Assembly: GCA_027459645.1 (NCBI GenBank)
Contig: DAIDHQ010000039.1
Coordinates: 1-64,000 of the forward strand
From: Vulcanimicrobiota bacterium
GTDB lineage: Bacteria; Vulcanimicrobiota; Vulcanimicrobiia; Vulcanimicrobiales; Vulcanimicrobiaceae
DNA length: 64,000 bases
Direction of reading: 5' to 3'
This document shows positions 2,594 through 61,908 of the stretch, piece after piece. Positions within the stretch are counted from its first letter, which is position 1. Every line of letters begins with the position of its first letter. The translations under genes and the position numbers were made by a program. The notes beneath the pieces were generated by a model. The model did not search any database. It was not told the DNA's origin and saw only the letters and a list, made by a program, of their open reading frames with translations.

Positions 2594-3813
2594 GCGTTCT
2601 CGACGCTCAACCATCGCACGAAATCCGCGATGCGTGCGCGACCGCCGTGATTGCCTTCGAGCGGCGGCCGTTGCAGTTCGCCGAAGCGGGCGATGCGGTT
2701 CGCTCCGGCGTCGATCGCGAAGGCCAGCAGCGCGTCATCGGTTGCGGCCGCCGCGACGGCTTCGATCGGTACCGCGTGCCGGCGAAGATAGGCGAGTGCG
2801 TCTGCCGTCGACCCGACCGAACGCACGGCGAGAGCGCGCGGCAAAAAGGCGGGCGGCTCGCTTTGCGGCGGATCCAGCACCGCAAGATACGTCGCGCGTT
2901 CGTTCGAAAAAACGGCACCGCTTCCGGTTGCGCTGCGAAACGCCGCCAGGTTGCGGGCGCTCGCAACGCGCGAGTTGACGTGCGCGTCGCGCTGCCCGGG
3001 CGGAAACTCGACTTCTGCGCGCTCCACCGCCGCGGCGAGCATTTCGCAAAACGCGGGGACGCCGATCGCGCCGCCTTCTTCGACGAAGAGCGCATGCAGC
3101 GAGAGGCATCCCTCGCTTTCATAAAGGACGAGATCGCGCGCGGCCCCGTCGGCGATCGCTCGCGCTTCGGCTTCGCCGCGCAGCGCTTCGCGAGAAACGT
3201 AGCCGACGGTGGCCTTCGAACCGAAACCGATGAAGCGCCCCGGACCTACCGTTCGCGCGATCGATGCGAGGGTGGCGTCGCTTCCGAAGGCGACGACGGC
3301 ATCGAACGCTTGCAACTCGACGGCGTCGCTTTCGCTTTCCCACTGTTCCGCGCGCGCGGCGGAGGCACACGCGTCGAGCTCCTCGCTAAGCGTCGCAAAA
3401 AATGTTCGCACGAGTCCGTCTTCGCGATCTTTCACGAGCACGTCGCATTTCGCACAGAGCGCGAGCACGGCCGGTACGATCGAGACGCCGATCGTCGTGC
3501 GGCTGGAAATCACGCACACTGATCCGATCGGAAGTGCGAGCGCCCGCGTGCGGCCAGAGCGAGTTTGTGGTGCGTCGAGGACGTCGAGCGAACCGAGCTC
3601 GCTCTCGATCGTCGCTTCGAGCGCGGCGCGCGTGATGGATCCGAAAAGCTGATCGAGCGCGTACTCGACGACCGGAAGCGAATACCCCGTACGTTCGACG
3701 ATCGGATCGAGCAAGCGCACGCGCGGGGGAAAGTCCGCGTCGGTCCAGCGCGCTGCAGCATCCGCGACGGCCGCGACGATCCGCCGCGACGCAACGCCCT
3801 GCAACGCCGTCAT
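2590..3813 (-). CDS. LuxC-like acyl-CoA (fatty acid) reductase
   Basis: A 407-residue member of the LuxC acyl-CoA reductase family, a branch of the aldehyde dehydrogenase fold that makes fatty aldehydes from acyl thioesters with NADPH. Diagnostic stretches are FIGFGSKATVGYVSRE (194-209) and DLVLYESEGCLSLHALFVEE (227-246); Cys236 is the likely acyl-accepting nucleophile. The C-terminus keeps the GRARIADFVRWL block typical of LuxC. It overlaps both neighbours by 4 nt, and the adjacent LuxE homologue would activate and deliver the acyl group. No luxAB luciferase genes are nearby, so bioluminescence is not implied. Confidence 0.85.
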   Translation of the reverse strand: MTALQGVASRRIVAAVADAAARWTDADFPPRVRLLDPIVERTGYSLPVVEYALDQLFGSITRAALEATIESELGSLDVLDAPQTRSGRTRALALPIGSVCVISSRTTIGVSIVPAVLALCAKCDVLVKDREDGLVRTFFATLSEELDACASAARAEQWESESDAVELQAFDAVVAFGSDATLASIARTVGPGRFIGFGSKATVGYVSREALRGEAEARAIADGAARDLVLYESEGCLSLHALFVEEGGAIGVPAFCEMLAAAVERAEVEFPPGQRDAHVNSRVASARNLAAFRSATGSGAVFSNERATYLAVLDPPQSEPPAFLPRALAVRSVGSTADALAYLRRHAVPIEAVAAAATDDALLAFAIDAGANRIARFGELQRPPLEGNHGGRARIADFVRWLSVENA

Positions 3814-14901: not shown

Positions 14902-17311
<2,410 letters not shown>

Positions 17312-17315
<4 letters not shown>

Positions 17316-18337
17316 GACGTTCGAAAATCGGGTTGGACGCGCGCTGCGGAAAGCGCATCTCGGTCGGAATGGCCACCTACATTCGCGAGGTCGCCGCGCG
17401 CCTGCCGCAGGTCGCCCCCGAATACGACTACGTCGAATACACGAAGGGGCAAAACCTCGGCATCGCCGAGCAAATATTGCTTCCGCTGGAGATGTGGCGC
17501 GATCGCATCGATCTCGCGCATTTCATGGCGCACTACGTCCCCGCCTTTGCCGACGGCACGTTCGTCTTCACGATTCACGACTTGATCCATCTGCGCTTCG
17601 TACAGTTCTTTCGCGCCTACATTGGGCCGTATTACAACACCGTCGTCAAGCGTGCGTGCCGGAAGGCGGCGCGCATCATCACCTCGGACAAACGCACGAT
17701 CGGCGATCTGGTGCACTTTTACGGCGTCGATCCTGCGAAGATTCGCGTCATCCCGCTCGCGCCGCGCGCGCGCTTCTTCGTGCCGGCCGAGCCGTTCCGC
17801 GGCGAGCGCCCCTATTTCTTGAACGTCGGCAACCACCGCGATCATAAGGACATTCCGACGCTTTTGCGGGCGTGGGCATCGCTGCCGGAGTCCTATGAGG
17901 TCGATCTCTATCTGACCGGTCGCGACGATCTCGAAGGCGAATTACAGCGGCTCTCGACGCCGCGGCGCAAGGCGGTCGTGCTCGGAGACGTGAGCGACGA
18001 CGAACTCGCGTCCTATTATGCGGGCGCCGTGGCGCTGGTTCATCCGGCGATGCTCGAGGGGTTCGGACTGCCGTTCGTCGAGGCGATTGCGGCCGGCGCT
18101 CCGGTCATTGCAACCGACCAGTCGATTCCGGAACCCGTCGCGGAGGTCTCGCTGCAGTTTCCGGTCGGCGATGCCGAGGCGGCGGCGCACCAGATGCGCC
18201 GCATGCTCGACGATGCAGCGTTACGAGCCGATCTCGTCGAACGCGGACGGCGTGCCGTCTCGCACCTGACGTGGGAACGAACGGCCCGCGAAACGGCCGC
18301 CGTTTATCGCGAAGTGCTGGAGGAGAAGACACGTTGA
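17312..18337 (+). CDS. GT1/GT4 family glycosyltransferase (GT-B fold)
   Basis: 341 residues. Two Rossmann lobes are visible, with FVFTIHDLIHLRF in the N-lobe and the donor-binding HPAMLEGFGLPFVEAIAAG in the C-lobe, whose Glu residues are the EX7E-type signature. It probably adds a sugar to a cell-surface glycan together with the preceding GT2. The ATG overlaps the GT2 stop, and its own stop overlaps the TTG of the next gene. Confidence 0.88.
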
Positions 18338-20330: not shown

Positions 20331-20501
20331 ATGGAAGTCCGCATAGCTCCAGGTGAATCGATCGAGAGCGCGCTGCGACGCTTCAAAAAGGCCACCCAAA
20401 AGGCGGGGATTCTCGCCGAAGCGCGCAAGCACGAACATTACGAAAAGCCCAGCGTTCGGCGCAAGAAGAAGTCCGCCGCCGCTCGCAAGCGCCGCGCGTA
20501 G
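20331..20501 (+). CDS. rpsU: Ribosomal protein bS21 (host copy)
   Basis: 56 residues ([18 protein letters not shown]...), with the helical core and a basic C-terminus (SAAARKRRA). bS21 sits near the anti-Shine-Dalgarno region of the 30S subunit and helps mRNA binding. The start has AAAGGGGGG upstream. yqeY follows at 20516, the common rpsU-yqeY pairing. A second, diverged bS21 of identical length is encoded in the integrated element at 56492. Confidence 0.95.
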
Positions 20502-20515
20502 CCCTCTAAGAGATC

Positions 20516-20965
20516 ATGGGTTCCCTGAAAGACCGCATCAGCGCCGATATGAAAGACGCGATGAAGGCGCGCGACCAGTTGCGCCTCGATACGCTTCGTT
20601 CGGCGCTGTCCGGCTTTACCTACAAACGCACCGAAGCCGGCGCGGATCTTTCCGATGCCGACGAGCTGGCGGTCGTCCAAAAGCTCGTCAAGCAGCGTGG
20701 CGACTCCCTCTCGGAATTCGAGAAGGCCGGCCGTACCGATTTGGCCGACAAGGAGCGCAAAGAGCGCGACATCCTGATGGTCTATCTCCCCCAGCAGAAA
20801 TCGCCCGACGAGATCCGCGGCGTCATTAAGACGATCATCGCGGAACTGCCCGACGGGGCCGTCAACCAGGGCGCGGTGATGAAAGCCGCCATGGCGCAGC
20901 TCAAGGGCGTTGCCGACGGCAACACCGTCCGCCAGATCGTCGCCGAAGAGCTCGCCTCCGCGTAA
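20516..20965 (+). CDS. yqeY: GatB/YqeY domain protein
   Basis: 149 residues, the stand-alone YqeY form that resembles the tRNA-binding tail of the amidotransferase GatB. Conserved stretches are LRLDTLRSALSGFTYKRTEAG and YLPQQKSPDEI, and the C-terminus is helical. Its role is not firmly known; it is presumed to bind tRNA. Confidence 0.9.
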   Translation: MGSLKDRISADMKDAMKARDQLRLDTLRSALSGFTYKRTEAGADLSDADELAVVQKLVKQRGDSLSEFEKAGRTDLADKERKERDILMVYLPQQKSPDEIRGVIKTIIAELPDGAVNQGAVMKAAMAQLKGVADGNTVRQIVAEELASA

Positions 20966-44417: not shown

Positions 44418-44436
44418 TGGTCATATAGTATGACCA
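44418..44436. promoter_or_regulatory. Palindromic operator over the antitoxin start codon
   Basis: TGGTCATA (44418-44425) and TATGACCA (44429-44436) are perfect 8-bp arms with a 3-nt spacer. The right arm contains the ATG of the antitoxin gene at 44430. This is the expected layout for autoregulation by a Phd-type antitoxin. Confidence 0.65.
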
Positions 44437-44702
44437 GAAAAAAAGCGAAGCCGCCCGTATCTTTTTTGCTTGCGTCCTCGCGTGAAATCGGGGCCGCCGA
44501 ATTCAAGGCACGGTGCCTCGAAATCATGGATGAAGTTGAGCGCCAAGGTATCGAGGTGACCATCACCAAGCATCGCCGGCCGGTCGCACGGCTCGTTCCC
44601 GCTCGCGCTCCGGGCGTGTTCTGCGGGTCGATGAAAGATTCGATCCTTTGGGAGGGCGATCTGATCAGTCCGATCGACGTCGAGTGGGAAGCGGGGCAAT
44701 GA
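44430..44702 (+). CDS. Phd/YefM-type antitoxin
   Basis: 90 residues. IGAAEFKARCLEIMDEVERQ followed by EVTITKHRRPVARLVPA is the classic DNA-binding N-terminal domain of Phd/YefM antitoxins; the C-terminal portion (about 65-90) would bind and inhibit the toxin. It overlaps the toxin gene by 4 nt and has a palindrome over its start codon, consistent with self-repression. Confidence 0.92.
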   Translation: MTRKKAKPPVSFLLASSREIGAAEFKARCLEIMDEVERQGIEVTITKHRRPVARLVPARAPGVFCGSMKDSILWEGDLISPIDVEWEAGQ

Positions 44703-45097
44703 TCCTTCTCGATACCCATGCCGCGCTGTGGGCGATCGAATCGCGGTTACCGAGCAAGGTGGCAAAAACGATCGATGCTGCCTCTGGTAGGTCGGAGCTC
44801 TTGCTTTCACCTATTAGCGCGTGGGAAATCGGGATGCTCGTGAGCAAGGGGCGATTGAGACTTCAGGAGCCCGCGGACGCTTTTGTTGCGCGGTTGTTTT
44901 CGCAACCGGGCGTCGTGATTGCAAACCTTACGCCGCTCGCAGCGATGCAGTCGGCGATGGTGGAGATGCACGCCGATCCCGCGGACCGCATGCTCGTTGC
45001 GACCGCAATTGCCTACGGTGCGGATTTCGTGACGCGTGACGCGCGCATCATCTCCTGGGCGAAGTCGACGCGCGCGCTGCGATGCGTGGCCTGTTAA
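44699..45097 (+). CDS. PIN-domain ribonuclease toxin (VapC-like)
   Basis: 132 residues. The acidic metal-binding residues of a PIN nuclease are visible: Asp5 (MILLDTHAALW), Glu43 (SAWEIGML), Asp96 (DPADRMLVATA) and Asp114 (VTRDARI). VapC enzymes cut tRNA or rRNA when free of antitoxin. The ATG at 44699 overlaps the antitoxin stop; its own stop overlaps the stop of the convergent peptidase gene. Confidence 0.92.
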   Translation: MILLDTHAALWAIESRLPSKVAKTIDAASGRSELLLSPISAWEIGMLVSKGRLRLQEPADAFVARLFSQPGVVIANLTPLAAMQSAMVEMHADPADRMLVATAIAYGADFVTRDARIISWAKSTRALRCVAC

Positions 45098-47185: not shown

Positions 47186-48130
47186 GTGCAGAAACCGTCG
47201 CGGCGCCACCATTACGTTCCTCAGTTCTACCTCAATGGGTTTGCGGGCGATCACGAGAGACCGCGCCTGTTTACAGTGGATCTGATGGGGCGCAAGAATT
47301 TCTACGCTAATCCTCTCAATATTGCTCTGAAGGGTGATTTTCACACGGTGGAGGTTGACGGCCATCCGCCCGATCTTATCGAGACTGCGCTTTCGGATTT
47401 TGAGGGCGCGGTCGCCCCGGCGCTGGCTCGAACCGTCGCGACGGCAACGTTCGCCAGCAGCGAGGATAAGAGCTACCTGCTGACCTTTGCGACGTTGCTT
47501 CTTGTCAAGCATCCGCGAATGCGTGCCGTGATGGATAATGTGGTGAACGCGGTGGTGCATGGAGCGAGCAGAAGTGAGGCCTCGGACGCTGAGGCATGGG
47601 AAATAAAATTACGCGGAATGATTGACGCGGGTGAGATGCCACCTAATACTGACATCGAGGCGCTCCGACATTCGATCCTCAGCGGAGATCACACGATCAA
47701 GCTCTCAACAGGCGCCCACCTTGAAATGGAGTTTGAGGTTGCCGAGGAGTTATTTCCCCTGGTCGCGCAGCGCAAGTGGAACATATACCGCGCGGTCGAG
47801 GGCGAGTTTGTTACATGCGATCGTCCTGTTGCACTGAGCTGGGCGGATCCCACGAAAAATAGTCCAATCGGGCTTGGACTCAAAAACACACGGCTGTTAT
47901 TCCCGCTATCGCCGACCGTTGCAATCAGTGGAGGCTTTGAGCTACGGGATGCCACGGTCGATCTCGGCGCTGAGGATGTCGCAAAGATCAACGGCCGAAT
48001 TATCCTACATGCAGGACGCCAAGTCTATGCGCGGGACGAGCAGTTTCAGTACTCGATCCATGGCAATACAGGCCCGAAGCACGGATACGCACTGCAAGAT
48101 GATGCCATCATCGCTCGAAAGATGAGATAA
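47186..48130 (+). CDS. DUF4238 domain protein
   Basis: 314 residues from a GTG start. The N-terminal RRHHYVPQFYLNGFAGD is the hallmark of DUF4238, and further conserved blocks are VTCDRPVALSWADP and FPLSPTVAIS. The biochemical function is unknown. The gene ends 20 nt before the left att site, so it lies outside the current element. Before integration it would have been the first gene downstream of tRNA-Leu, a place where earlier mobile elements often leave cargo. Codon usage looks less GC-rich than the housekeeping genes. Confidence 0.82.
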   Translation: MQKPSRRHHYVPQFYLNGFAGDHERPRLFTVDLMGRKNFYANPLNIALKGDFHTVEVDGHPPDLIETALSDFEGAVAPALARTVATATFASSEDKSYLLTFATLLLVKHPRMRAVMDNVVNAVVHGASRSEASDAEAWEIKLRGMIDAGEMPPNTDIEALRHSILSGDHTIKLSTGAHLEMEFEVAEELFPLVAQRKWNIYRAVEGEFVTCDRPVALSWADPTKNSPIGLGLKNTRLLFPLSPTVAISGGFELRDATVDLGAEDVAKINGRIILHAGRQVYARDEQFQYSIHGNTGPKHGYALQDDAIIARKMR

Positions 48131-48149: not shown

Positions 48150-48184
48150 GCACGAAAATTGGTGGGGAAGGTGGGATTTGAACC
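48150..48184. repeat. Left attachment site (attL), 35-bp direct repeat
   Basis: These 35 bases are identical to 61815-61849. They contain the last 25 bases of tRNA-Leu (CCA end, acceptor strand, part of the T arm) plus 10 flanking bases. Identity stops at 48185, so this is an orphan tRNA 3' fragment, the expected product of site-specific integration. Confidence 0.92.
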
Positions 48185-49235: not shown

Positions 49236-49439
49236 GTGAAGAGCATCTTAAGCTTAGCCGTGCTAACCAGTTACGGAACGATGAACAGAGGAGCCGCGAT
49301 CCTCGGTTTGGGGACGAGCACCCTTCAGCGAGCGTGCAGCGGGTGTAACGTGTCCGAATCTACGCGCGAAAAGTTAGAGAGCGCCTTCGGGCAACCACTC
49401 GAGTTTTTACAACAGACGATTGCGGAGGTGTCGCGATGA
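49236..49439 (+). CDS. Small helix-turn-helix-like protein
   Basis: 67 residues from a GTG that has GGAG at 49224-49227. The sequence RGAAILGLGTSTLQRACSG and STREKLESAFGQPLEFLQQ reads as four to five short helices with a Cro/XRE-like turn, so a DNA-binding regulator is likely but not certain. It overlaps the following excisionase-like gene by 4 nt (ATGA). Confidence 0.55.
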   Translation: MKSILSLAVLTSYGTMNRGAAILGLGTSTLQRACSGCNVSESTREKLESAFGQPLEFLQQTIAEVSR

Positions 49440-49621
49440 GTACAACGTGGCTGAACCCCACGCAGGTTGCGCGCATCCTAGGCTGTACGCGGAAACACGC
49501 CTACTGGCTTCTGGATCACGGCGGCATCCCGTGCGTCGACCTTCCGACGCCTGGACGCCGAAAGATGCGCCGCGTCTCCGCTGCCGCACTTGAAGTGTGG
49601 ATGAAGGAGCATACACGATGA
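49436..49621 (+). CDS. Excisionase-like MerR/HTH_17 DNA-binding protein
   Basis: 61 residues. WLNPTQVARILGCTRKHAYW followed by a DLPTPGRRKMRRVSAAALE wing is the winged-HTH of excisionase-family proteins. It could promote excision with the integrase at 60559 or regulate the element. It overlaps both neighbours by 4 nt and leads straight into the tape-measure gene, an unusual arrangement. Confidence 0.78.
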   Translation: MSTTWLNPTQVARILGCTRKHAYWLLDHGGIPCVDLPTPGRRKMRRVSAAALEVWMKEHTR

Positions 49622-52600
49622 GCGCAGACCAAGGTTTGAGCTTTGCAATCACCGCCGATGGGTCGAGCGCGTCTGCGGAGATTCAAAACCTCGAAGCCCG
49701 CTTGACGCAACTCGAAGCGGCGTTCAAGGCATCGGGTGAAGGCGCGAGCGTTGCGTCGTCGGGGATCGAAAAGGTCGGCGTCGTATCGAAAGACGCAAGC
49801 AGTGGGCTTGAGGCAATGGCTGCGCACGCGGGCACGGTCGGTCGCGCGCTCTCCGCTCTCGGTTTCGATGCCGAGGCCGCTGGCGCTCGCGTCGAGGGCA
49901 TGCTCGGCGTAATGAAAGAGCTTTCGTCGGCAGTGCCCGAGTTGCTTGCGATCGGCGCGGCGTTTGTAGCCATCTCATCGGCTGCGTCCTTTATGAAGGA
50001 CAGCATTAGTTTAGCGGCTGAGTGGGACCAGCGCCTTCAGATCCTCGGGCAAACCATTCGCAACCAGGGCGGCGATTGGGACGCTATGCGCGAGAAAGTC
50101 ATCGCGTGGGCTGACGTCCAAGAAAAAACCACGCAATTTTCACGCGATGAGGCCGTTCAAGCCCTCACGCAGTTGACCGCTACGGGAATGAGCGCGTCTG
50201 ACGCCATGAAGGTCATCGGCGTTGCCGAAGACGCTGCAGCGGCTACCGGGCTATCGCTTACGGCGGTCGAGCATGGCCTCATGGAAGCGATGCACGGTCG
50301 CGCTCAGGCATTAACGCAGCTTGGCATTGGAACGAAGCAGTCCATTCACGATGGCATGAAGTTCCAGGACGTCCTCAACGCCATCGAGCAGCACATGGGC
50401 GGTGCCGCCACGGCTGCAGCCGACACCTATGCCGGCAAGCTCAAGGAAATGCAGCACGCGGTGGAGTCGCTGCAAGAAGACCTTGGGAACCTGCTGCTTC
50501 CCGCACTAACCAACGTCGTCGATCACATTAAGTCATTCGTCGACGAAGTCGACCGCGATCTTCCGCAGATCAAGCAGCAATTCGGTTCGGTCCTTACGGC
50601 AGTATCGGACGTCATAAACTTCCTGGTCGATCATAAGGACCAGGTCGAGTTCTTTTTCGACGTTTTGATCGCGCAGCGTGCGGTATTGGCGCTTACGGCA
50701 CTTCGGACTGGATTCATTACGGCGATGGCCGCCGGCGGTGCGTTTACAACCGTCGTGGAAACGATGGAGTCCGTCTTTACCGTTGGGCTCATTCCGACAA
50801 TGGACGCCGTCGTGGCAAGCCTTGGCGCTATTGTCACGGAGGAAACGGCGGCAACCTTTGGTCTGAATCTCCTCATCGCTGGCAGTATCGCCGGGGCGAT
50901 CTACGCATTTCAGCATTGGCAGGAAGTTCTTCAGGTTACGCAGTTTTCCATCGGGCAACTCGAAAACGCAATCGGGTCGCTTGTTGACGATCTGCTCGGC
51001 TGGATTCCCGGAGTACACGCCTTCGCGCAGTCGCTCGAAGACATGGGGATGAAGGCGCAGATCGCAGCAGCGCAGATTCGCGACCTTCATGCGGCCCAGA
51101 ATGGTGATAAGGGCAAAGCCGACATGGGCGCTGCGTCAAGCGGTGCATGGGGTGCGCCTACCGTAAGCGATGCGCTTGGGTCAACGATGGTTGGCGGCAA
51201 GCTTGGTGGAGCAAAACACGGCTCCGCTGGCGCTGCTGGTTATAACGCGCAGGCTATTCAGGCCGCAACGATCGACGAAACCGCGCTTGCCAACGCCCAC
51301 AAAGCCCTCGGTGCGGCGGCGGATGATGCCTCAGCAGCGCAAGCCGCTCTTGCCGCAAAGATCATCGAAACGATGGACTCGCAACAGCAGCAGTCTATTG
51401 CCATGAAGAAGCTGCAAGAATCCTATGACGCTGCTCGCGCGTCGATTCCTCGTCTGATTGACGAGATCAAAAGCGAGAAGGACGCCGAACACGGCGCGCA
51501 GTCGGCTGTTCAGGCAACGCACGAAGCCTACACCAAGGCGGTCGCGGCGCTCAATGCCTACGAGAAGTCGCTCGAAGGTAAAACGAAGCTCACCGCAGCG
51601 GAGAAGAATGAGCTCAACGCGCTCAAAGACGCGGTTAAGGCGTCTGACACGGAATACAAGAGCGCGGATAAGACGCTCAAAGACATTACGAAAACACTCG
51701 ACGAGCATAATAAGATGCTCGCTACGGCCACGAAACAGGTCAACGCGTTCGCACTTGAGCAGCAGAAGCTTGTCGTGGCGCTGAACGACGCGAAGGAGAA
51801 AGAGCAACAGAAGGTTGCCGATGAAAAGGCGATCTACGGCATGTCGCTCGACCAGCTCGCGAAGTATTACGCCGAGCGGTATGCGATGGCGGTGAAAGCC
51901 GATCAGGACTACTACGACGAGCACCACACGCACCTCAAATCTATGCTTGACGATGAGGCGAAATATTATGTGAAGTCGATCGACGCGAACTTCAATGCGT
52001 GGAAGAAGCGTCAAGATGACACTGCGAAGGCGGAACAGCAGGAAGAAACGTCGATCTCGAACTTCCTCGACGACATCATCGTTAAGCACAAGACGTTTAA
52101 GGACGAGTTCAAGTCGATTTGGAACGAAATCGAAACCATTTTCATTGACGACATTGCGAAGATGATCGCAGAGTCGAGCGCCTTCAATACGATTCTGAAG
52201 AACCTTCTCGGGAGCAATGCTGGTGGTGGTCTCGCCGGCATCATCGGATCGTTATTCGGCGGCCAGCATAACCCGGGTGGCGGAATTATCAATGGCCCGG
52301 TTGGGGCCGGCGCCGATTTGAGCAGTCTGCTGATTGCGCCCGGTTCGTCATCGTCTTCGGCGCTTGCGGTTACGCTTACCGGCGCGTCATCCGGTTCCGG
52401 GCTCGATAAGCTCTTTGGTGGCGGCTCAGGAGGCGGCTTGGGTGCGCTTGCAATGGGCGCTGGCATCGGTGGCCTCGTTGGTGGCTTCGAGGGTGCTGGT
52501 TCCGGCGCTAAGGATCAGCACGCGACTTGGGGCGCCGTCGGCGGCCTGCTCGGCGTTGGCGCGCTTGGACTCGCTGCTGGCTGGGGCAGCGGCATGGGCG

Positions 52601-53373
52601 CGGGTCTTGCGGCATTGCTGGGTGCTGGCCCTGCTGGATGGGCGCTCTTGCTCGGCGCAGGGCTACTCGGCGGCGCTGCCGGCGGCCTGTTCGGCCCGAA
52701 TTGGGGGCCACCGTCGAATTATCCCGACCGTTCGGATACGCAGAACTACGGGCAGTTCGTTGCCGATTGGACTGGAGCGCCGGGTTCCTTTAACGGGCAG
52801 ACGATCGCGCCGTTGCAACAGTACAATGGCAAGTCGAACGATGAAGCCGCGCAGATGCTCGCGTGGGCGCAAGCGAATCCGAACGATCCGCTCTCGAAGC
52901 AACTGCTCGCGTTAGGCTCGACGCAGCAGCAGCTCGATATTACGAACGAGCACAACGGCGTCTTCACGCTCGGCGACGGTAAGCAAATCAGCGTCACCGA
53001 TCTCGAGAACCTCGTCAATCAGTGGCAGCAGCAGACTGGCGGAACGACCACGGTTCCGACGTTCACCCTTACGCATAGCTTCCCTGATTGGCAAAATCCG
53101 CAACTCGCGTTGGGCGGTAATTTCAACGGCCCTCCGGGATCGGTTCAGTCACCGGGCGGCCCGATAGGAAGCCATCCTGGCGCACCTGGCGCGCCAGGAG
53201 GCCCAGGCGGTGGCAATACGCATCCTCAGCCGCCAACGATCCATGTGCGCGTCGACCTTACAACCGGCGCGCTTGTCGGCGTTACGAAAGACTCACTTGT
53301 CAAAGCGGTGTCTGAATCGGTTGCCGACGAGGTTCGGCGCATCCCGCTCACGCGTTTCCAAACGACCTTCTAA
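49618..53373 (+). CDS. Phage tail tape-measure protein
   Basis: 1251 residues from the ATG at 49618, which overlaps the excisionase-like stop. Residues about 120-330 are a conserved tape-measure region (LAAEWDQRLQILGQTI, AATGLSLTAVEHGLMEAM, TYAGKLKEMQHAVESLQEDL, LGNLLLPALTNVVDHI). Hydrophobic helices lie near 350-440, long coiled coils at about 570-820, and a Gly/Ala-rich hydrophobic region at about 880-1020 (LGALAMGAGIGGLVGGFEG). Tape measures set tail length and line the tube; at roughly 1.5 angstrom per residue this one would suit a tail near 190 nm. No other tail gene is present, so it may act on a helper's tail. Confidence 0.88.
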   Translation: MSADQGLSFAITADGSSASAEIQNLEARLTQLEAAFKASGEGASVASSGIEKVGVVSKDASSGLEAMAAHAGTVGRALSALGFDAEAAGARVEGMLGVMKELSSAVPELLAIGAAFVAISSAASFMKDSISLAAEWDQRLQILGQTIRNQGGDWDAMREKVIAWADVQEKTTQFSRDEAVQALTQLTATGMSASDAMKVIGVAEDAAAATGLSLTAVEHGLMEAMHGRAQALTQLGIGTKQSIHDGMKFQDVLNAIEQHMGGAATAAADTYAGKLKEMQHAVESLQEDLGNLLLPALTNVVDHIKSFVDEVDRDLPQIKQQFGSVLTAVSDVINFLVDHKDQVEFFFDVLIAQRAVLALTALRTGFITAMAAGGAFTTVVETMESVFTVGLIPTMDAVVASLGAIVTEETAATFGLNLLIAGSIAGAIYAFQHWQEVLQVTQFSIGQLENAIGSLVDDLLGWIPGVHAFAQSLEDMGMKAQIAAAQIRDLHAAQNGDKGKADMGAASSGAWGAPTVSDALGSTMVGGKLGGAKHGSAGAAGYNAQAIQAATIDETALANAHKALGAAADDASAAQAALAAKIIETMDSQQQQSIAMKKLQESYDAARASIPRLIDEIKSEKDAEHGAQSAVQATHEAYTKAVAALNAYEKSLEGKTKLTAAEKNELNALKDAVKASDTEYKSADKTLKDITKTLDEHNKMLATATKQVNAFALEQQKLVVALNDAKEKEQQKVADEKAIYGMSLDQLAKYYAERYAMAVKADQDYYDEHHTHLKSMLDDEAKYYVKSIDANFNAWKKRQDDTAKAEQQEETSISNFLDDIIVKHKTFKDEFKSIWNEIETIFIDDIAKMIAESSAFNTILKNLLGSNAGGGLAGIIGSLFGGQHNPGGGIINGPVGAGADLSSLLIAPGSSSSSALAVTLTGASSGSGLDKLFGGGSGGGLGALAMGAGIGGLVGGFEGAGSGAKDQHATWGAVGGLLGVGALGLAAGWGSGMGAGLAALLGAGPAGWALLLGAGLLGGAAGGLFGPNWGPPSNYPDRSDTQNYGQFVADWTGAPGSFNGQTIAPLQQYNGKSNDEAAQMLAWAQANPNDPLSKQLLALGSTQQQLDITNEHNGVFTLGDGKQISVTDLENLVNQWQQQTGGTTTVPTFTLTHSFPDWQNPQLALGGNFNGPPGSVQSPGGPIGSHPGAPGAPGGPGGGNTHPQPPTIHVRVDLTTGALVGVTKDSLVKAVSESVADEVRRIPLTRFQTTF

Positions 53374-54771: not shown

Positions 54772-54801
54772 GCCCTTTAATTGAGTGAACGGCAAAAAAC
54801 A

Positions 54802-55668
54802 ATGAACGCAAAAAAAGAACCCGGCGGGGTAACGCCGGGCACAAAAAAGTCCAAGAACTCTTCGGAAAGCATATCACGGCATCGGAGAACGACACAAGGC
54901 CCGCTCTTTAGTCGCCCCCATCTTCGCGGTCATGAGTTATACGTGATTGCCCCGCAAAACGTGCTGCGAGCCGACTTATCACCGCGCGAATTGAAGGTAT
55001 ATCTCGCACTCGCGAGCCACGCAAACGAAGACGGCGAAGCGTGGCCTTCGCTTGGGACGATCGCCAAAGAGACTGGACTTAACGACGTCCGAGCCGTGCG
55101 TCGAGCACTCCGAGATTTAGAGCTCGTCGGAATGATCTCGTCTTTTCGGCGCTTCCGTGGCGGAAATGTCGCGGCGCTCGCGCTCTCAAGCGTCTATCGC
55201 CTCGAACCGGATCCGAACGTGTGGGTTCTGGAGCGACAAACCGATGATGATGGCCCCGGAGGCTTTGTCGCGAGGGTCGCGTGGAGCGAACTTGCCGCGC
55301 TACGTCAAGAGTTTCCCTGCGCACAGATTCGCCTCCGCACCCGCGCCGACCGCGAGCGATTCCATGCGCTCGACCGCTTTTCGCAAGTAACGTCGGAGCT
55401 CTCTGACACCACCGCGCCAGCAGATACGCCAGGCGTTGCCGTGGAGATCATCGGGATTCCTGAGCCACAGCGACAAGAGGCACAAAGCGCGCTCGACGCA
55501 CTCGCGCTATGGTGCGCCCGCGGAAGCCGGCTTTTACCGTGGTCGGTGCTCGTGGCCCTTATTGAAAAAATGAACACGGAAGACCCGTCGTCATGGCTTG
55601 GTGCACGGGAGCAACGCAACGCAATCCAAGCGCGCTTAGACCACTTGAACGGAGAAAAATCGGCATGA
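54802..55668 (+). CDS. Winged-helix replication initiator (HTH_36-like)
   Basis: 288 residues. After a basic, probably flexible N-terminus, residues about 45-125 form a winged helix (LSPRELKVYLALASHANEDG, WPSLGTIAKETGLNDVRAVR, LRDLELVGMISSF). This is the fold of phage and plasmid replication initiators with an HTH_36 domain. The C-terminal half is helical. The start is placed at ATG 54802; TTG 54781 is possible. Four iteron-like repeats follow directly downstream, supporting a replication role. Confidence 0.78.
   Translation: MNAKKEPGGVTPGTKKSKNSSESISRHRRTTQGPLFSRPHLRGHELYVIAPQNVLRADLSPRELKVYLALASHANEDGEAWPSLGTIAKETGLNDVRAVRRALRDLELVGMISSFRRFRGGNVAALALSSVYRLEPDPNVWVLERQTDDDGPGGFVARVAWSELAALRQEFPCAQIRLRTRADRERFHALDRFSQVTSELSDTTAPADTPGVAVEIIGIPEPQRQEAQSALDALALWCARGSRLLPWSVLVALIEKMNTEDPSSWLGAREQRNAIQARLDHLNGEKSA
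54820..54839 (-). terminator. Minus-strand terminator-like hairpin inside the initiator gene
   Basis: CCCGGCG (54820-54826) pairs with CGCCGGG (54833-54839). On the minus strand the stem is followed by TTCTTTTTTT. No minus-strand gene is seen downstream, so it may stop antisense transcripts or affect initiator translation. Confidence 0.4.
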
Positions 55669-55895
55669 ACAATGCGCGTACAGTGGGGGCGGAATTGACC
55701 CCCACCCCTCCGGGTCAAATTGACCCCCACCCTCCGGGCGGATTCGACCCCCAGGTGGGGGCGGAATTGACCCCCCTAACTATACATAGAACATGTGAAG
55801 TGGAACGTAGTCTTACTCACTACGTTCGTAAGACGCCCGGTGCAGGCACCGTACGCAGCCTCCTGTGTGGTGGAAACCATGCCGCGTTCCTGTAG
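55665..55895 (+). CDS. Small overlapping ORF encoding Pro-rich repeats
   Basis: 76 residues from an ATG overlapping the initiator stop. Residues 8-40 read GAELTPTPPGQIDPHPPGG and so on, which is what the iteron-like DNA encodes in this frame. In many HTH_36 initiators a similar LTP/DPP-type segment is part of the initiator itself, so this may be a split-off tail. Its real expression is uncertain; the DNA may matter more than the peptide. Confidence 0.4.
   Translation: MNNARTVGAELTPTPPGQIDPHPPGGFDPQVGAELTPLTIHRTCEVERSLTHYVRKTPGAGTVRSLLCGGNHAAFL
55692..55775 (+). repeat. Four iteron-like repeats, candidate replication origin
   Basis: The 12-mer GAATTGACCCCC or a variant occurs at 55692 (exact), 55717 (one mismatch), 55741 (two mismatches) and 55764 (exact), at 23-25-bp steps. 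The exact copies at 55692 and 55764 are preceded by GTGGGGGCG, and at the first copy GTGGGGG (55683-55689) and CCCCCAC (55699-55705) form an inverted repeat. A relatively A/T-rich stretch (55776-55795) follows, as expected of an unwinding element. Confidence 0.6.
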
Positions 55896-56397
55896 CATTT
55901 GCACTCATCCGCAGGGCATGGACATTACGAAAGCGATCTGCCGCGGCGGTTCAAAGCGGACGATTGCGGCTCGTTTCGCGGTCGACGATTCAGCAGTCCA
56001 TCGACACAAAGTGAACTGCCTCCGCATCGTCGGCCCGAAGAAAGCGACAGACGAGAAACATTGGGAAAACGCGACTTTTGCGCCGGAGCGGTTCGATTCT
56101 AGTGCAGATCCACGCGCAATAATTGCACGCGCTGATTCATTGCTAACGCGCGCTGAACGTGTAATGCACGAAGCGGATAAAGACGGCGACAATTTACTTG
56201 TGTTGAAGGCAGTGCGCGAAGCGAAAGGCGTCGTTGAAATGCTCGCGCGCATTCACGGTTTGCTACAAAGCGACGGCGCCGTGGTCGTCGATCAACGCAG
56301 CGTAACTGTCAACGCGCCGGAACTTCCCGAGGAAGATATGCGCGCGATCATAGCAATGGCGCGAGGCTTGCCGGCGAGCGAAAAGGGCTGCGTTTAG
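55879..56397 (+). CDS. Terminase small subunit-like DNA-binding protein
   Basis: 172 residues from the ATG at 55879. The N-terminus has a CSICTHPQG knuckle followed by a helix-turn-helix (RTIAARFAVDDSAVHRHKVN), a layout common in phage proteins encoded just upstream of TerL. A helical middle (LLTRAERVMHEADKDGD) could oligomerise. Assignment as TerS rests on this layout and position; a regulator is the alternative. Confidence 0.6.
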   Translation: MPRSCSICTHPQGMDITKAICRGGSKRTIAARFAVDDSAVHRHKVNCLRIVGPKKATDEKHWENATFAPERFDSSADPRAIIARADSLLTRAERVMHEADKDGDNLLVLKAVREAKGVVEMLARIHGLLQSDGAVVVDQRSVTVNAPELPEEDMRAIIAMARGLPASEKGCV

Positions 56398-56491
56398 GTA
56401 CTAATCCCACACGCAATACGCGGGTTTCCGTGCTTAATCGGCCTCAGAAAATGGCCGACTGTCAACGGATTCGTTAACGAGAAGGGAATTT

Positions 56492-56662
56492 ATGAAGGTC
56501 GAAGTGGTCCCGGGCGAGCCGTTAGAGCTTGCCCTAAAACGCTTTACCAAGCGCGTTTCGCGCGATGGCATACTGTTGACGTTCTGCCGTCGAGCGCGCT
56601 TTGTCGCGAAGGGTGAACGGCTACGCAATAAGAGCCGTGCTGCAAGAAAGCGCATGCAATGA
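56492..56662 (+). CDS. rpsU-like: Element-encoded ribosomal protein bS21
   Basis: 56 residues (MKVEVVPGEPLELALKRF..., ending SRAARKRMQ) with GAAGGGA upstream of the ATG. It has the same length as the host bS21 at 20331 and is identical at 22 of 56 positions, including the PGE turn, A-L-x-RF helix core, GIL and the KSxAARKR basic tail. The middle helix (FCRRARFVAKGERL) differs strongly. bS21 lies by the anti-Shine-Dalgarno helix, so an element copy could enter ribosomes and bias initiation; phage-borne bS21 is known elsewhere. It overlaps the next ORF by 4 nt and lies two genes before TerL. Confidence 0.9.
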   Translation: MKVEVVPGEPLELALKRFTKRVSRDGILLTFCRRARFVAKGERLRNKSRAARKRMQ

Positions 56663-56949
56663 GCGGCAGCGATACGCTAACGTTGATTGCGCGCGTCGAC
56701 CAGCTTGAGGCGCACGTTAAAGAGCAGCGCGGCCAGATCGCCAAATTGGGCGCGGCGCTGATGCGATTAACGCAAACGTCCGAAGACAACTTCTTGGCAT
56801 TCGGCAAGGCGCTAGCATCGAAGACTATTGCGGATGGCAAGCGCGAAAAGCTCATAGAGATGCTTAAAGCGACACTCGAACGGCATGAGAGCGAAATTCG
56901 CAAGCTGCGGGTTTCGAGCAAGTGTGACATCGACGGGTGCGAGCGATGA
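56659..56949 (+). CDS. Short coiled-coil protein
   Basis: 96 residues, mostly heptad helix (LTLIARVDQLEAHVKEQRGQ, LIEMLKATLERHESEIRKLR), ending in a CDIDGCER knuckle. It overlaps bS21 and TerL by 4 nt on either side. It might be a TerL partner; unknown. Confidence 0.65.
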   Translation: MSGSDTLTLIARVDQLEAHVKEQRGQIAKLGAALMRLTQTSEDNFLAFGKALASKTIADGKREKLIEMLKATLERHESEIRKLRVSSKCDIDGCER

Positions 56950-58451
56950 GCGAGAATTCGGCGAAGATCAAGGCGCTAGCAAGTGTGTACGAACGTCGCC
57001 TTGCCCAATCGCACTTGCTAGACTTTGCTCGGCGCGTAAATCCTTGGTTTGAAGCGCCGGTGCACCTCAAGTACCTTGCCGGCCATCTTGAACGCATCGA
57101 AAGCGGCGCAATCACGCGCCTTGCAATCACCGCGCCGCCCGGTCACGGCAAATCGTCGCTGACGCAGGCGTTCGTTGCGTGGTTCATTGGTCGCGACCCG
57201 AAACGTCGCGTCCTTGCGCTGTCGGGAAATCAGGCGTTGGCGCGCCGCAACAGTCGTGCCGTGCGCGGTATGCTGCAGAATCCGGCGTGGCCGTTCGAGT
57301 GTCGCCTCTCCGGCGAGGCGCTCGAAGAATGGGAAACGTCCGAGGGCGGCGGCGTTCGCGCGATCGGTCGCGATGGGCAACTCACGGGCTTCCGCGCTGA
57401 AGCGATTTTGTTCGATGACGTCCAGCCGGATGCTGGCACGCTGACGTCGCGGCAAGATGACGAGGCGTGGTACCGCGAGATATCGTCGACGCGTCTGGAG
57501 CCCAACGGCGTGCAGGTGTTGATCGCAACACGATGGGCGGAGGATGACCTTATCGGTCGTCTGCGTGAAGGCGCAAGCGCGATGGAGTGGACATTCGTCG
57601 ACTTGCCGGCGCTGGCGCGCGAAAATGACCCGCTAGGGCGCGCGGAGGGCGACGCCCTATGGCCAGAGCGTTGGCCCGTTGACGTTCTGCGCAAGCGCAA
57701 GTCGGAGGTTGGCAGTCTCGCCTTCGCGTGCCAATACCAGGGCGCGCCGGTGCCTCCCGAGGGGCGCTTCGTTCAGCGCGCGTGGTTTCCGCGCTATACG
57801 CCCGGTTCGTTGCCGGCATTTAAGAAAATTGTGCTCGGCGTCGACTGCGCAGCAAAAGCCGAGAAGCGAAACGACAATAGCGCGATCGCCGCAGTGGGCG
57901 TTCCGGCGTCTTCTGTCGAGTCGTATCTCCTGGACGTCTGGGCGAAGCGGATTGAATTCCCGGATCTCGTTCGGGCGCTTAAGGAGCACTACGCCCGCTG
58001 GAAAGACTTAAGCGTTCCGGTCTTCGTGTACGTCGAGGACGCGAGCGCCGGCACGCAGCTCGTGCAGTCGCTAAAGCGGGAGTCCGGCATTCCTGTAATC
58101 CTCGTAAAGACGGGCGGGAAGTCGAAGATCGAGCGCATGGAATCGTTGACCCCTCACTTCGAGGCGGGGCGGGTGTTGCTTCCGGCGCACGCGTCGTGGC
58201 TTGGCGCCTTCGAGGAGGAGCTATACGCGTTCCCTGCGGCGCGCCATGACGATCGGGTCGACGCGTTCGCTATTGCGATTGCTCAGGTGGCGCAGAAGGC
58301 GTTTGCATACGCTGGAGCATTTTCGTCTGGCGCTTCGGTAGTCGCAGATGGCACCGGAACCGTTCGAACCGTACTCTCGCCGGTGAGTGACGGCGTTCCC
58401 CTGGGAAGCGGAGCCGCGATCAGCCACGCACTGCGCGCGGGGATGTTCTAA
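56946..58451 (+). CDS. Terminase large subunit (TerL)
   Basis: 501 residues. ATPase domain: Walker A ITAPPGHGKSSLT (61-73), Walker B AILFDDVQ (153-160), coupling motif VLIATRWAEDDLIGRL (191-206). RNase H-like nuclease: VLGVDCAAKAEKRNDNSAIA with the first metal Asp, and HDDRVDAFAIAIAQ with the last. All catalytic residues are present, so it should package DNA into a procapsid supplied from elsewhere. The ATG at 56946 overlaps the preceding stop. Confidence 0.94.
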   Translation: MSENSAKIKALASVYERRLAQSHLLDFARRVNPWFEAPVHLKYLAGHLERIESGAITRLAITAPPGHGKSSLTQAFVAWFIGRDPKRRVLALSGNQALARRNSRAVRGMLQNPAWPFECRLSGEALEEWETSEGGGVRAIGRDGQLTGFRAEAILFDDVQPDAGTLTSRQDDEAWYREISSTRLEPNGVQVLIATRWAEDDLIGRLREGASAMEWTFVDLPALARENDPLGRAEGDALWPERWPVDVLRKRKSEVGSLAFACQYQGAPVPPEGRFVQRAWFPRYTPGSLPAFKKIVLGVDCAAKAEKRNDNSAIAAVGVPASSVESYLLDVWAKRIEFPDLVRALKEHYARWKDLSVPVFVYVEDASAGTQLVQSLKRESGIPVILVKTGGKSKIERMESLTPHFEAGRVLLPAHASWLGAFEEELYAFPAARHDDRVDAFAIAIAQVAQKAFAYAGAFSSGASVVADGTGTVRTVLSPVSDGVPLGSGAAISHALRAGMF

Positions 58452-58777: not shown

Positions 58778-59161
58778 ATGGCAAGAGTTACAGTACCACA
58801 TTCCGGGTCGAGTGAGACATCGAACCTCGTCCGGTTTCCCGACGTCGCGGAGAGAATGGAGCGGCGGATGCGCGCTCCCGAAGTTCTCGATTTTGTTGGC
58901 ACGACGGGGGCCGATGAGAAGGTCGCGCAATTCCCCGACGCGATCGGACGGTGTGAGCGACGGCTCGAGCGTTTAGCCAACGCGATTTTGGAATTACAGG
59001 AGCGACTGGAGCGGCGTGCGCGGCGGCTCGGCGTTACGCTTCCCGCGCCTCCGCTTGGTGAAAAGCTCCCGACTGTCCGTCAAATTGCTGACGATGTAAC
59101 GAAACAGGTCATGGATGCGCTCGCGCAGGGCGCGGAAGGGCAATATGCAGACCAGCCGTAA
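58778..59161 (+). CDS. Unknown helical element protein
   Basis: 127 residues from the ATG at 58778. There is an N-terminal low-complexity stretch, then a charged helix (CERRLERLANAILELQERLE) and a conserved-looking C-terminus (TVRQIADDVTKQVMDALAQ). Its last 17 nt overlap the next gene. Confidence 0.55.
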   Translation: MARVTVPHSGSSETSNLVRFPDVAERMERRMRAPEVLDFVGTTGADEKVAQFPDAIGRCERRLERLANAILELQERLERRARRLGVTLPAPPLGEKLPTVRQIADDVTKQVMDALAQGAEGQYADQP

Positions 59162-60068
59162 CGCGCCGTGTCCGTGTGGAAGCGGACGCAAATACAAAGT
59201 CTGCTGCCTCGCAAAAGACGAGGCGCAACACAAGCCGCGTATCGACAAAGACGCGCTGATCGTCTGCATGCCGACCCGCGGGCAGATCACCTACGAAACG
59301 GAGCTTGCCCTTCGTGAGACGCTGCGTGGCTTCGATGCGCTCTTTTGCACGATCGGGCGCAAGCCCGTGGTCGAGGCGCGAAACTGGCTTGCGCGCAGCG
59401 CGCTGAGCGCGATCGACGCGAATCCACTCGCGTTTACGCCGCGCGAGTGGTTCATCTTGTGGATCGACGACGACGCGTGGTGGCAGCAGGGCACCGTTCA
59501 GATTCTCGTCGACGGGTTACGGAAGGACCGCGCGACAGACGTTGTGTTCGGCCTTTTTGGAAACCGCACGCCGTATGCCGGGCCGGCGGCATTCCGTAAC
59601 GCGAATGACCTGCAAAGCTTTCCGAAGATGGGCGTCGATTGTCGGCAGGGCGACCTCATACCAATCGAACGCGCAGGCTTTCACTTCGTACTCATGCGAG
59701 AGAGCGCGCTTCGTCGCGTTGGACCTGATCCGTTTACGCCGCGCCGTGCCCACGGCGAGGATTTTGAATTCTGCGAACGGGCGGTCGAAGCGGGCCTCAG
59801 TCTGAAAGTCGCGACCGGCGTGCCGATAGCGCACCTGGACCCGCGCGATGGCACGGCGTACTTCGTCGGCATGGCGCCGATGATGATGGACGGGAACGTC
59901 GTGCGCGCCATGAGCCTCACGCATGCCACTCCGCAAGGTGTTAAAGAGGCCGAGCTTCGCGAATATGGCGAGCAGATTGGCGATGCAGCCGCGCGTGAGC
60001 GTGAGGCGCTGAGCGAAATTGAATCAGAAATGCAACAGCGGCGCAAGGTCGCAGAGGGAGCGGTATGA
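59145..60068 (+). CDS. SEC-C zinc motif fused to GT-A glycosyltransferase-like domain
   Basis: 307 residues from the ATG at 59145. Residues 6-21 (NAPCPCGSGRKYKVCC) are a SEC-C zinc motif. The rest looks like a GT-A glycosyltransferase: LIVCMPTRGQITYETELALR first strand, metal-binding WIDDDAWW (107-113), acceptor-side GEDFEFCERAVEAGLSL (204-220) and a metal-ligand His in VPIAHLD. It could glycosylate DNA, a virion protein or a host surface target; which is unknown. SEC-C motifs usually bind zinc and mediate protein or RNA contacts. Confidence 0.78.
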   Translation: MQTSRNAPCPCGSGRKYKVCCLAKDEAQHKPRIDKDALIVCMPTRGQITYETELALRETLRGFDALFCTIGRKPVVEARNWLARSALSAIDANPLAFTPREWFILWIDDDAWWQQGTVQILVDGLRKDRATDVVFGLFGNRTPYAGPAAFRNANDLQSFPKMGVDCRQGDLIPIERAGFHFVLMRESALRRVGPDPFTPRRAHGEDFEFCERAVEAGLSLKVATGVPIAHLDPRDGTAYFVGMAPMMMDGNVVRAMSLTHATPQGVKEAELREYGEQIGDAAAREREALSEIESEMQQRRKVAEGAV

Positions 60069-60556
60069 TTCCGACCACAGATGGTTCCAAGGCCAAGGCG
60101 TTTCTCGCGTCGCTTAAGCCCGAAGATGCAAACATGCTGCGCGCGGCGATCGTCGCGGCAATTGCGAAGACGTCGGAACTAACCGTCGAGGTCGCCGTCG
60201 TATCGCATGCGCGCAACCTGGACGTTATTCGTGAAACGCAGATAAACGTCGCGGTCATCGAGAATACGGCGCTCGACTGCGCCGCCGACGTTCTTGCAGC
60301 GTCCTGGCCCAAGCGGACCGACGGCGCGCCCGTTACAGATCTGAGCGCGCTCGCTGCCGGCGCCGCGGTCGCGAGCGGAATGAGTCTCGGCAAGGCGCGC
60401 GGCGCCATGTATCGCGCGGGGAGCGCCCTTGGCGATGTCGAGGCGATTGCTTCGGGCAATCCCGAGAAAATTGTTCGGCGTGGGGCGCAGCACGTTTTCT
60501 GGCGCGCGTTCGGCAAGCTTGGTCGTGGTATTTTCCGCTCGTTCGGAGGTAAGTAG
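60065..60556 (+). CDS. Unknown element protein with C-terminal helical/Gly-rich region
   Basis: 163 residues; the ATG overlaps the preceding stop. The N-terminal half is helical and charged (FLASLKPEDANMLRAAIVAA); the second half has Ala/Gly-rich helices (LSALAAGAAVASGMSLGKAR) and a basic end (FWRAFGKLGRGIFRSFGGK). It lies just before the integrase gene. Unknown. Confidence 0.55.
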   Translation: MIPTTDGSKAKAFLASLKPEDANMLRAAIVAAIAKTSELTVEVAVVSHARNLDVIRETQINVAVIENTALDCAADVLAASWPKRTDGAPVTDLSALAAGAAVASGMSLGKARGAMYRAGSALGDVEAIASGNPEKIVRRGAQHVFWRAFGKLGRGIFRSFGGK

Positions 60557-60558
60557 CG

Positions 60559-61752
60559 ATGCGAGGGCATTTCAAACGGCGCACATACCGGGATAAGAAG
60601 ACCGGCGCGATTCGCACGGCCACCACATGGTCGGTGCTTTACGATCTTCCGACTGCTCCGGGCGAAAAGCGCAAGCAGAAGATCAAGTCTGGATTCGCAA
60701 CGAAGCGGGACGCGGTTGCGTGGTTCACGCGTAAGGCGGAGGAATTACGTCAAGGCATTGCGCCGGCGGATGACCGTATTACGGTTGAGCAGTACCTAAC
60801 GAATTGGCTGACGACTGCGGAGGGGACCGTTTCGGCGCTCGCACTCCACGCGTACAAGAACCACGTCGAGCAGCATATCATCCCCGCGCTTGGTGCAATC
60901 CGACTAGTGGATTTGCGCGCGACGCACGTTGAAACCGCCAAGGCTCGTTGGTCGACGAGCGCCCCGAAGGGACGAAAGACGGGGCGCCTGAGCGATCGCA
61001 CGGTGCGGCATATCTATTCCACGCTGAACACGGCGCTTAACCGCGCTGTTCGTCACCGAATGATCCCCGTTAATCCGTGCGAGTTTGTCGACGCTCCTCG
61101 CGTAGAGAGGCGCGAAATGCAGGCGCTCGACGCGGCGGCTGGCGCGCGGATGATCGAATTACTTGAAGGCTCGCACATTGGAGCCGCGATCGTGACGGCA
61201 TTGGGCACGGGGCTCCGGCGGGGCGAACTGCTCGCGCTAAAATGGTCCGACGTCGACCTCGATGCGGGGCTCCTCACCGTTCAGCGTTCGCTCGAGCGCG
61301 CAACGAAGGCAACGCGTTTCAAAGATCCAAAGACGAAACGCTCGCGAAGGACTGTTAGCATCCCGCGTTTCGTGGTCGACCGCCTGCGGCGCCATCGTAT
61401 GGAGCAGGCTGAGCGTTTCTTGTCCCTGGGTCTCGGTCGCCCGACGGCAGACGCGCTCGTATTCGAGCGGTTAGGCGAACCGTGGGTCCCTAATACGTTT
61501 GGAACGGCGTTTCGACGCGAACTAAAGCGGTTGGAATTGCCGGCAATTCGTCTGCATGACCTCCGCCATTCATTCGCGTCGATGGCGCTCGCTGCCGGCG
61601 TTGATCTGAAGACGGTTTCGAGCGCACTCGGGCACTCGACGATCTCAACGACGGCGGATGTTTACGCGCACGTTACGGCGGCCATGAAAAAGGACGCCGC
61701 CGCTCGCCTCGATGCCGCCCTCGCCGGGGCCGCAAAACGTGCAAGTGGATAG
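60559..61752 (+). CDS. int: Tyrosine-family site-specific integrase
   Basis: 397 residues. An arm-binding region (1-70) and a SAM-like core-binding domain (75-170) precede the catalytic domain. The catalytic residues are visible as Arg220 (GTGLRRGELLALKW), His333 and Arg336 (LHDLRHSFASMA), His359 (ALGHSTIS) and the nucleophile Tyr369 (DVYAHV). It ends 63 nt before attR, as usual for tRNA-integrating elements. Confidence 0.96.
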   Translation: MRGHFKRRTYRDKKTGAIRTATTWSVLYDLPTAPGEKRKQKIKSGFATKRDAVAWFTRKAEELRQGIAPADDRITVEQYLTNWLTTAEGTVSALALHAYKNHVEQHIIPALGAIRLVDLRATHVETAKARWSTSAPKGRKTGRLSDRTVRHIYSTLNTALNRAVRHRMIPVNPCEFVDAPRVERREMQALDAAAGARMIELLEGSHIGAAIVTALGTGLRRGELLALKWSDVDLDAGLLTVQRSLERATKATRFKDPKTKRSRRTVSIPRFVVDRLRRHRMEQAERFLSLGLGRPTADALVFERLGEPWVPNTFGTAFRRELKRLELPAIRLHDLRHSFASMALAAGVDLKTVSSALGHSTISTTADVYAHVTAAMKKDAAARLDAALAGAAKRASG

Positions 61753-61814: not shown

Positions 61815-61849
61815 GCACGAAAATTGGTGGGGAAGGTGGGATTTGAACC
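61815..61849. repeat. Right attachment site (attR), 35-bp direct repeat
   Basis: Identical to 48150-48184. It lies across the 3' end of tRNA-Leu, whose gene is complete here, so the element brought in a replacement 3' end and left the tRNA functional. Confidence 0.92.
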
Positions 61850-61908
61850 CACACGAGTTGCCCCGGCCGCTTTTGAGGCGGCTGCGTCTGCCGTTCCGCC
61901 ACTTCCCC
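61825..61908 (-). tRNA. tRNA-Leu (CAA)
   Basis: 84 nt with encoded CCA. Acceptor GGGGAAG/CTTCCCC, anticodon loop CTCAAAA (CAA) on GCCGC/GCGGC, a class II variable arm and T arm GTGGGTTCAAATCCCAC. The 3' 25 bases are within attR. Confidence 0.95.

Follow-up and report, generated by a model that had tools for sequence, protein, structure and literature searches.

Why a small integrated element should carry its own copy of a ribosomal protein is the question raised by a 56-residue ORF at 56492-56662 (plus strand, ATG start) of the window, the 64,000-nucleotide stretch of a Vulcanimicrobiota contig analysed here. An initial annotation, made from the letters alone, had taken this ORF for a bS21 homologue, and profile searches bear out that assignment: PF01165 matches with E = 2.7e-11 and 43.5 bits (curated Pfam cut-off 27) across positions 1-54 of 55, so that the family cut-off is passed over the whole domain. 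The ORF also matches phrog_21469 (E = 6e-4), and when it was compared with PDB sequences by phmmer, accepting E up to 1, S21 chains accounted for 27 of 29 matches. A profile built from seven element-borne copies, described below, retrieved S21 chains only from the PDB (best 8.2e-11). The AF2 model is helical, with a mean pLDDT of 82 and a low pTM (0.39); structurally, bS21 chains match it best, none of them reaching E < 0.001. The host rpsU gene (20331-20501, plus strand), which lies outside the element and serves here for comparison only, was found by the PF01165 search of the genome and precedes a yqeY-like gene at 20516, recognised by eye; its product shares 39% identity (22/56) with the window copy, the count given previously. 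A chance match was ruled out by the E-values and by recurrence of the ORF. By its sequence, we conclude, the ORF encodes a homologue of bS21, and it resides in a mobile element in which capsid genes were not recognised.

The signals around the ORF suggest that it is translated together with its neighbours. A ribosome-binding-site-like AAGGG (56482-56486, plus strand; four SD matches) stands five bases 5' of the ATG, although its strength is moderate rather than good, as had been claimed. The bS21 stop codon shares an ATGA with the start, at 56659, of a 96-aa ORF (56659-56949, plus strand; weak coiled-coil-like matches), in agreement with the coupling noted from the sequence, and the stop of this ORF, the only one between bS21 and TerL, shares a further ATGA with the TerL start (ATG 56946). 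RNA folding of the bS21 leader revealed nothing unusual (z = 0.48).

The element itself measures 13.7 kb and is delimited by exact 35-bp repeats 13,665 bp apart, one attL-like (48150-48184) and one attR-like (61815-61849), the latter at the 3' end of a tRNA-Leu gene (61825-61908, minus strand). In the congeneric genome G060 the tRNA-Leu end and the two flanking sequences are present at the corresponding site, within 16 kb, and the element is absent. The genes of the element include, all on the plus strand, an excisionase-like ORF (49436-49621; weak match to phrog_66, E = 0.0034), a tape-measure-like protein (49618-53373, start placed by SD; phrog_1272 and others, best E = 3.5e-6), a replication-initiator-like protein with HTH_36 (54781-55668; PF13730, E = 2.1e-14; phrog_270), a TerS-like ORF (55879-56397, for which 55879 is the better start), bS21, the 96-aa ORF and the large terminase TerL (56946-58451; phrog_38, E = 3e-105; PF17289, E = 2.9e-12). 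These are followed by a SEC-C motif protein with a glycosyltransferase-like part (59115-60068; PF02810, E = 9.7e-10), a 163-aa ORF (60065-60556) resembling L004:14831-15310 by eye, and a tyrosine integrase (60559-61752; PF00589, E = 4.3e-24). Outside the element, two small ORFs at 44430-45097 of the window resemble, on visual inspection, genes for a Phd-type antitoxin and a PIN-domain toxin, and a DUF4238 gene (47186-48130, E = 9.5e-37) stops 20 bp short of the attL-like repeat.

Two earlier descriptions of this gene set hold in part. Of the terminase genes said to flank bS21, TerL is secure, but the TerS-like ORF owes its name to its position and to an HTH-like sequence read by eye, because it matches no Pfam or PHROG family. 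The element had also been called capsid-less: no capsid or portal family was matched among the element ORFs searched against Pfam and PHROG, nor did PF05065 and PF04860, the two capsid/portal families sought there, match anywhere in the source genome, yet a tape-measure-like protein is encoded. Similar proteins occur in other small TerL elements (L012:5847-7775, L203:5580-7772 and L200:2714-4696, besides window 49618-53373; PHROG E 1.6e-4 to 9.4e-15), with capsid, portal and tail-tube genes unrecognised. A tape measure is unexpected in the absence of a tail, and such a protein might alter or hinder the tails of a helper.

PF01165-type copies were then sought at the level of the order (103 genomes) and of the phylum (149 genomes). 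In the source genome the search led to three places: host rpsU, the window element and C4:24247. The third lies in a second bounded element of 12,405 bp, with repeats at tRNA-Pro, which encodes an integrase, TerL, a TerS-like ORF, a serine recombinase and a SEC-C protein with 64% identity to that of the window (59115-60068). Six other Eremiobacterota genomes carry element-type bS21, so that, besides the two copies of the source genome (G000), there are two in G026 (one broken) and one each in G009, G038, G071, G089 and G118. Across these six, bS21 is adjacent to TerL in three, lies two genes upstream of it in one, sits in an integrase element with no TerL nearby in one and is on a contig without phage genes in one. 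G038:C72 is an 11,251-bp element at a tRNA-Leu of the same anticodon, in the order serine recombinase, bS21, TerL; G026:C35 shows the end of a recombinase-like ORF, then bS21, TerL and integrase; G071:C105 runs TerL, bS21, tape-measure gene; and in G089:C203, close to the contig end, bS21 precedes a TerS-like gene and TerL. In G118:C11 (L239) the neighbours of bS21 include an integrase and a gene that matches primase types weakly, and no TerL was seen within about 10 kb. Similar copies in G009:C130 and G026:C307, the latter broken, lie on contigs without recognisable phage genes.

A significant PF01165 match and recurrence in related elements, the absence of either of which had been named as grounds for dropping the bS21 reading, were thus both observed, and eight element copies each exceed the PF01165 cut-off. 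The assignment to a packaging operon fits six of the copies but not L239. Overlaps of the ATGA/GTGA type between bS21 and its neighbours were found in the window, G038, G026 and G071. Three bS21-carrying elements are bounded (window, C4 and G038), and the carriers measured are integrated elements of 11-14 kb. Taken together, a family of small tRNA-integrated elements in Eremiobacterota appears from its sequences to carry a diverged bS21; it is satellite-like as judged from genes alone, because integrase, replication and terminase genes are present while capsid and portal genes are unrecognised. SEC-C and glycosyltransferase-like proteins recur among the elements (window 59115-60068; L004:15307-16227 and 16400-17512; L011:7606-8550). 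A serine-recombinase-like ORF lies right before bS21/TerL at L004:18417-19580, in L011 upstream of 10872, at L010:76-226 and at L204:3829-4539, and most elements with such an ORF also have a tyrosine integrase.

The ancestry of these copies was assessed with a tree of seven element copies, 21 host sequences of the order, E. coli bS21 and four phage-collection records, among them one that appears to be bacterial. The seven element copies formed one group with support of 98/95, apart from host rpsU. In the bacterial-looking L234 (CAKLQH020000004.1), catalogued as Acinetobacter phage MD-2021a, rpsU adjoins yqeY. Separation from host genes was less clean in a wider tree that also took in the G118 copy and 20 additional host sequences from the phylum: the element group was placed beside host copies of the order, and two divergent host sequences fell among the element copies, with a single clade of eight element copies not rejected (p-AU 0.26). 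The two intruders, L247 and L259 (from G133 and G132), read HHMSTRDKKR at the hinge. A single origin of the element copies is likely from these alignments, and is graded no higher because the sequences are short and the branches long.

The copies differ from host bS21 at this hinge. Column counts show Y-E-K-P-S-V to be nearly fixed in host proteins, and the eight element copies mostly read F-[IVL]-x-[RK]-x-[EQ], followed by R, R and K residues fixed among them. The window copy, FVAKGE, lacks the host-type YEKPS/T hinge, which the Pfam cut-off does not require. The helix-1 core and the basic C-terminal helix are retained in the element copies; every copy has the helix-1 glutamate, and most also preserve the core of leucine and arginine. 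Copies in different genera remain open frames at 29-44% identity to that of the window.

Such elements also occur without bS21. A TerL search of the phylum was positive in 19/149 genomes, and the 1.5-kb flanks of those TerL genes yielded already known bS21 copies only, besides a bS21-like match beside TerL in G100 that was rejected, being out of frame inside a TerS-like gene. In L054 a TerL 47% identical to that of the window lies beside portal and capsid genes, identified by eye, without bS21. Among 80 viral contigs with TerL of 29-38% identity no convincing bS21 was found (one weak match, E = 0.085), and three element bS21s, each compared singly with IMG/VR, returned no relative. The 8.8-kb element L201 (G040:C17), with repeats at 3730 and 12578, has an integrase, a primase-like gene and TerL, and neither bS21 nor a capsid gene was seen in it. 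Since most TerL elements found are without bS21, the protein is not essential to such a lifestyle.

What, then, would the protein do? Our leading reading, held with somewhat more belief than doubt, is that element bS21 enters the 30S subunit and, during expression of the element, shifts the balance of initiation. Read together with its neighbours by coupled translation, it would be made with the packaging genes and would compete with host bS21 for its loosely held place on the 30S platform, close to the anti-Shine-Dalgarno. Its altered hinge would then change which mRNAs are selected, and during DNA packaging messages of the element or of the helper phase might be favoured, or host initiation damped. 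Published work provides a precedent: viral bS21 is incorporated into E. coli ribosomes (PMC6375957), phage bS21 is co-expressed with structural genes (PMC9723584), and in Flavobacterium SD use shifts with bS21 occupancy (PMC9976891). In Francisella lacking bS21-2, protein levels are altered and transcript levels are not (PMC9578407). We posit more tentatively, as an idea that may well prove wrong, that a satellite-like lineage keeps its own hinge-changed bS21, evolved separately from host rpsU, to form specialised ribosomes favouring element or helper late messages, or hampering competing translation, during packaging. With a crude gene list and an assumed host anti-SD (a pattern search for the 16S 3' end gave no match in this assembly), we counted the ORFs that reach four or more SD matches: their fraction was 0.44 among 25 host ORFs, 0.67-0.86 in three elements that carry bS21 and 0.78 in one that lacks it. 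This comparison gave no signal specific to bS21, since sites in the element lacking it are just as strong.

The hinge that invites this reading also complicates it: as it is nearly fixed in host bS21, its change could mean that ribosome binding is lost. A protein off the ribosome might be a small basic packaging cofactor that works with TerS/TerL or binds the packaged DNA, and the six copies lying beside TerL or within a few genes of it, often with overlapping start and stop codons, would suit such a role. We nonetheless hold it unlikely: gene order varies, with bS21 before TerL, after it or several genes away, and around the G118:C11 copy no TerL was seen for about 10 kb. bS21 is also missing from many TerL elements and from a full prophage whose TerL is related, and the element-copy profile still matches bS21 alone. 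Less probable again is a protein that binds RNA away from the ribosome and might, for instance, regulate transcripts of the element itself; the altered binding hinge is compatible with it and bS21 has been reported as part of the OLE RNP complex (PMC12054373), but the fold of the bS21 leader RNA is ordinary.

Entry into the 30S need not mean retuning. The protein could instead block initiation there and so shut down translation by the host or a competing phage, a reading to which we give only a small share of belief, similar to that for a packaging cofactor. In E. coli extracts, ribosomes with Pelagibacter-phage bS21 are nearly inactive (PMC6375957), and the normally fixed hinge is altered here; species mismatch may explain the former, however, the element's own late genes need translation, and the sequence offers nothing to tell a poison from retuning. 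That the gene is a captured host copy, functionless and decaying, is the least probable of these explanations. Only a minority of TerL elements have bS21, and the G026:C307 copy is broken, but open frames diverged across genera, a common signature and repeated overlaps with neighbours all count against decay. Retuning of initiation from within the 30S remains the reading that we prefer.

Phage bS21 is well known; as far as the literature searched shows, the novelty here lies in the hinge change and in a carrier that is small, integrative and, by the searches made, capsid-less. Like the phage genes (Mizuno 2019, PMC6375957; Chen 2022, PMC9723584), which are proposed to replace host bS21, the copies described here reside in viral-type genomes, often near structural or terminase genes. 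The carriers differ, however: those of phage bS21 are mostly lytic (3/1310 with temperate signatures) and, where cultivated, exceed 130 kb (PMC6375957; PMC9723584), whereas ours are integrated elements of 11-14 kb with capsid and portal genes unrecognised. Phage bS21 in the strict sense would be carried by a virion-forming virus, and no capsid or portal gene was found among the window-element ORFs searched. The hinge change also differs in kind from the N-terminal changes of phage bS21 (PMC9723584). Francisella likewise has several bS21 versions per genome with evidence of altered translation, but its paralogues are not described as element-borne in the abstract (PMC9578407), and the extra copies here lie in mobile elements. 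PICIs, cf-PICIs and Streptomyces satellites (PMC10690885) are also small and have terminase genes without a full phage gene set. The window element, with its integrated state, att sites and integrase, resembles satellites in these traits, and the bounded bS21 elements here lie at tRNA genes. cf-PICIs and Streptomyces satellites, in contrast, have capsid genes with TerS/TerL (PMC10690885); the window element has TerL without the capsid, portal and protease set of cf-PICIs. A limited literature search, confined to titles and abstracts, returned no report of bS21 in 11-14-kb capsid-less integrative elements.

The recurrence of bS21 in elements of the same phylum suggests that such elements may adjust the host translation machinery to their own needs. 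Host and element bS21 of one genome would offer a direct test of whether a small ribosomal protein can change message choice. If the proposed role is true, bS21 would be worth keeping even in elements of 11-14 kb, where each gene counts, and ribosome takeover by a bS21 variant would not be confined to large lytic phages.
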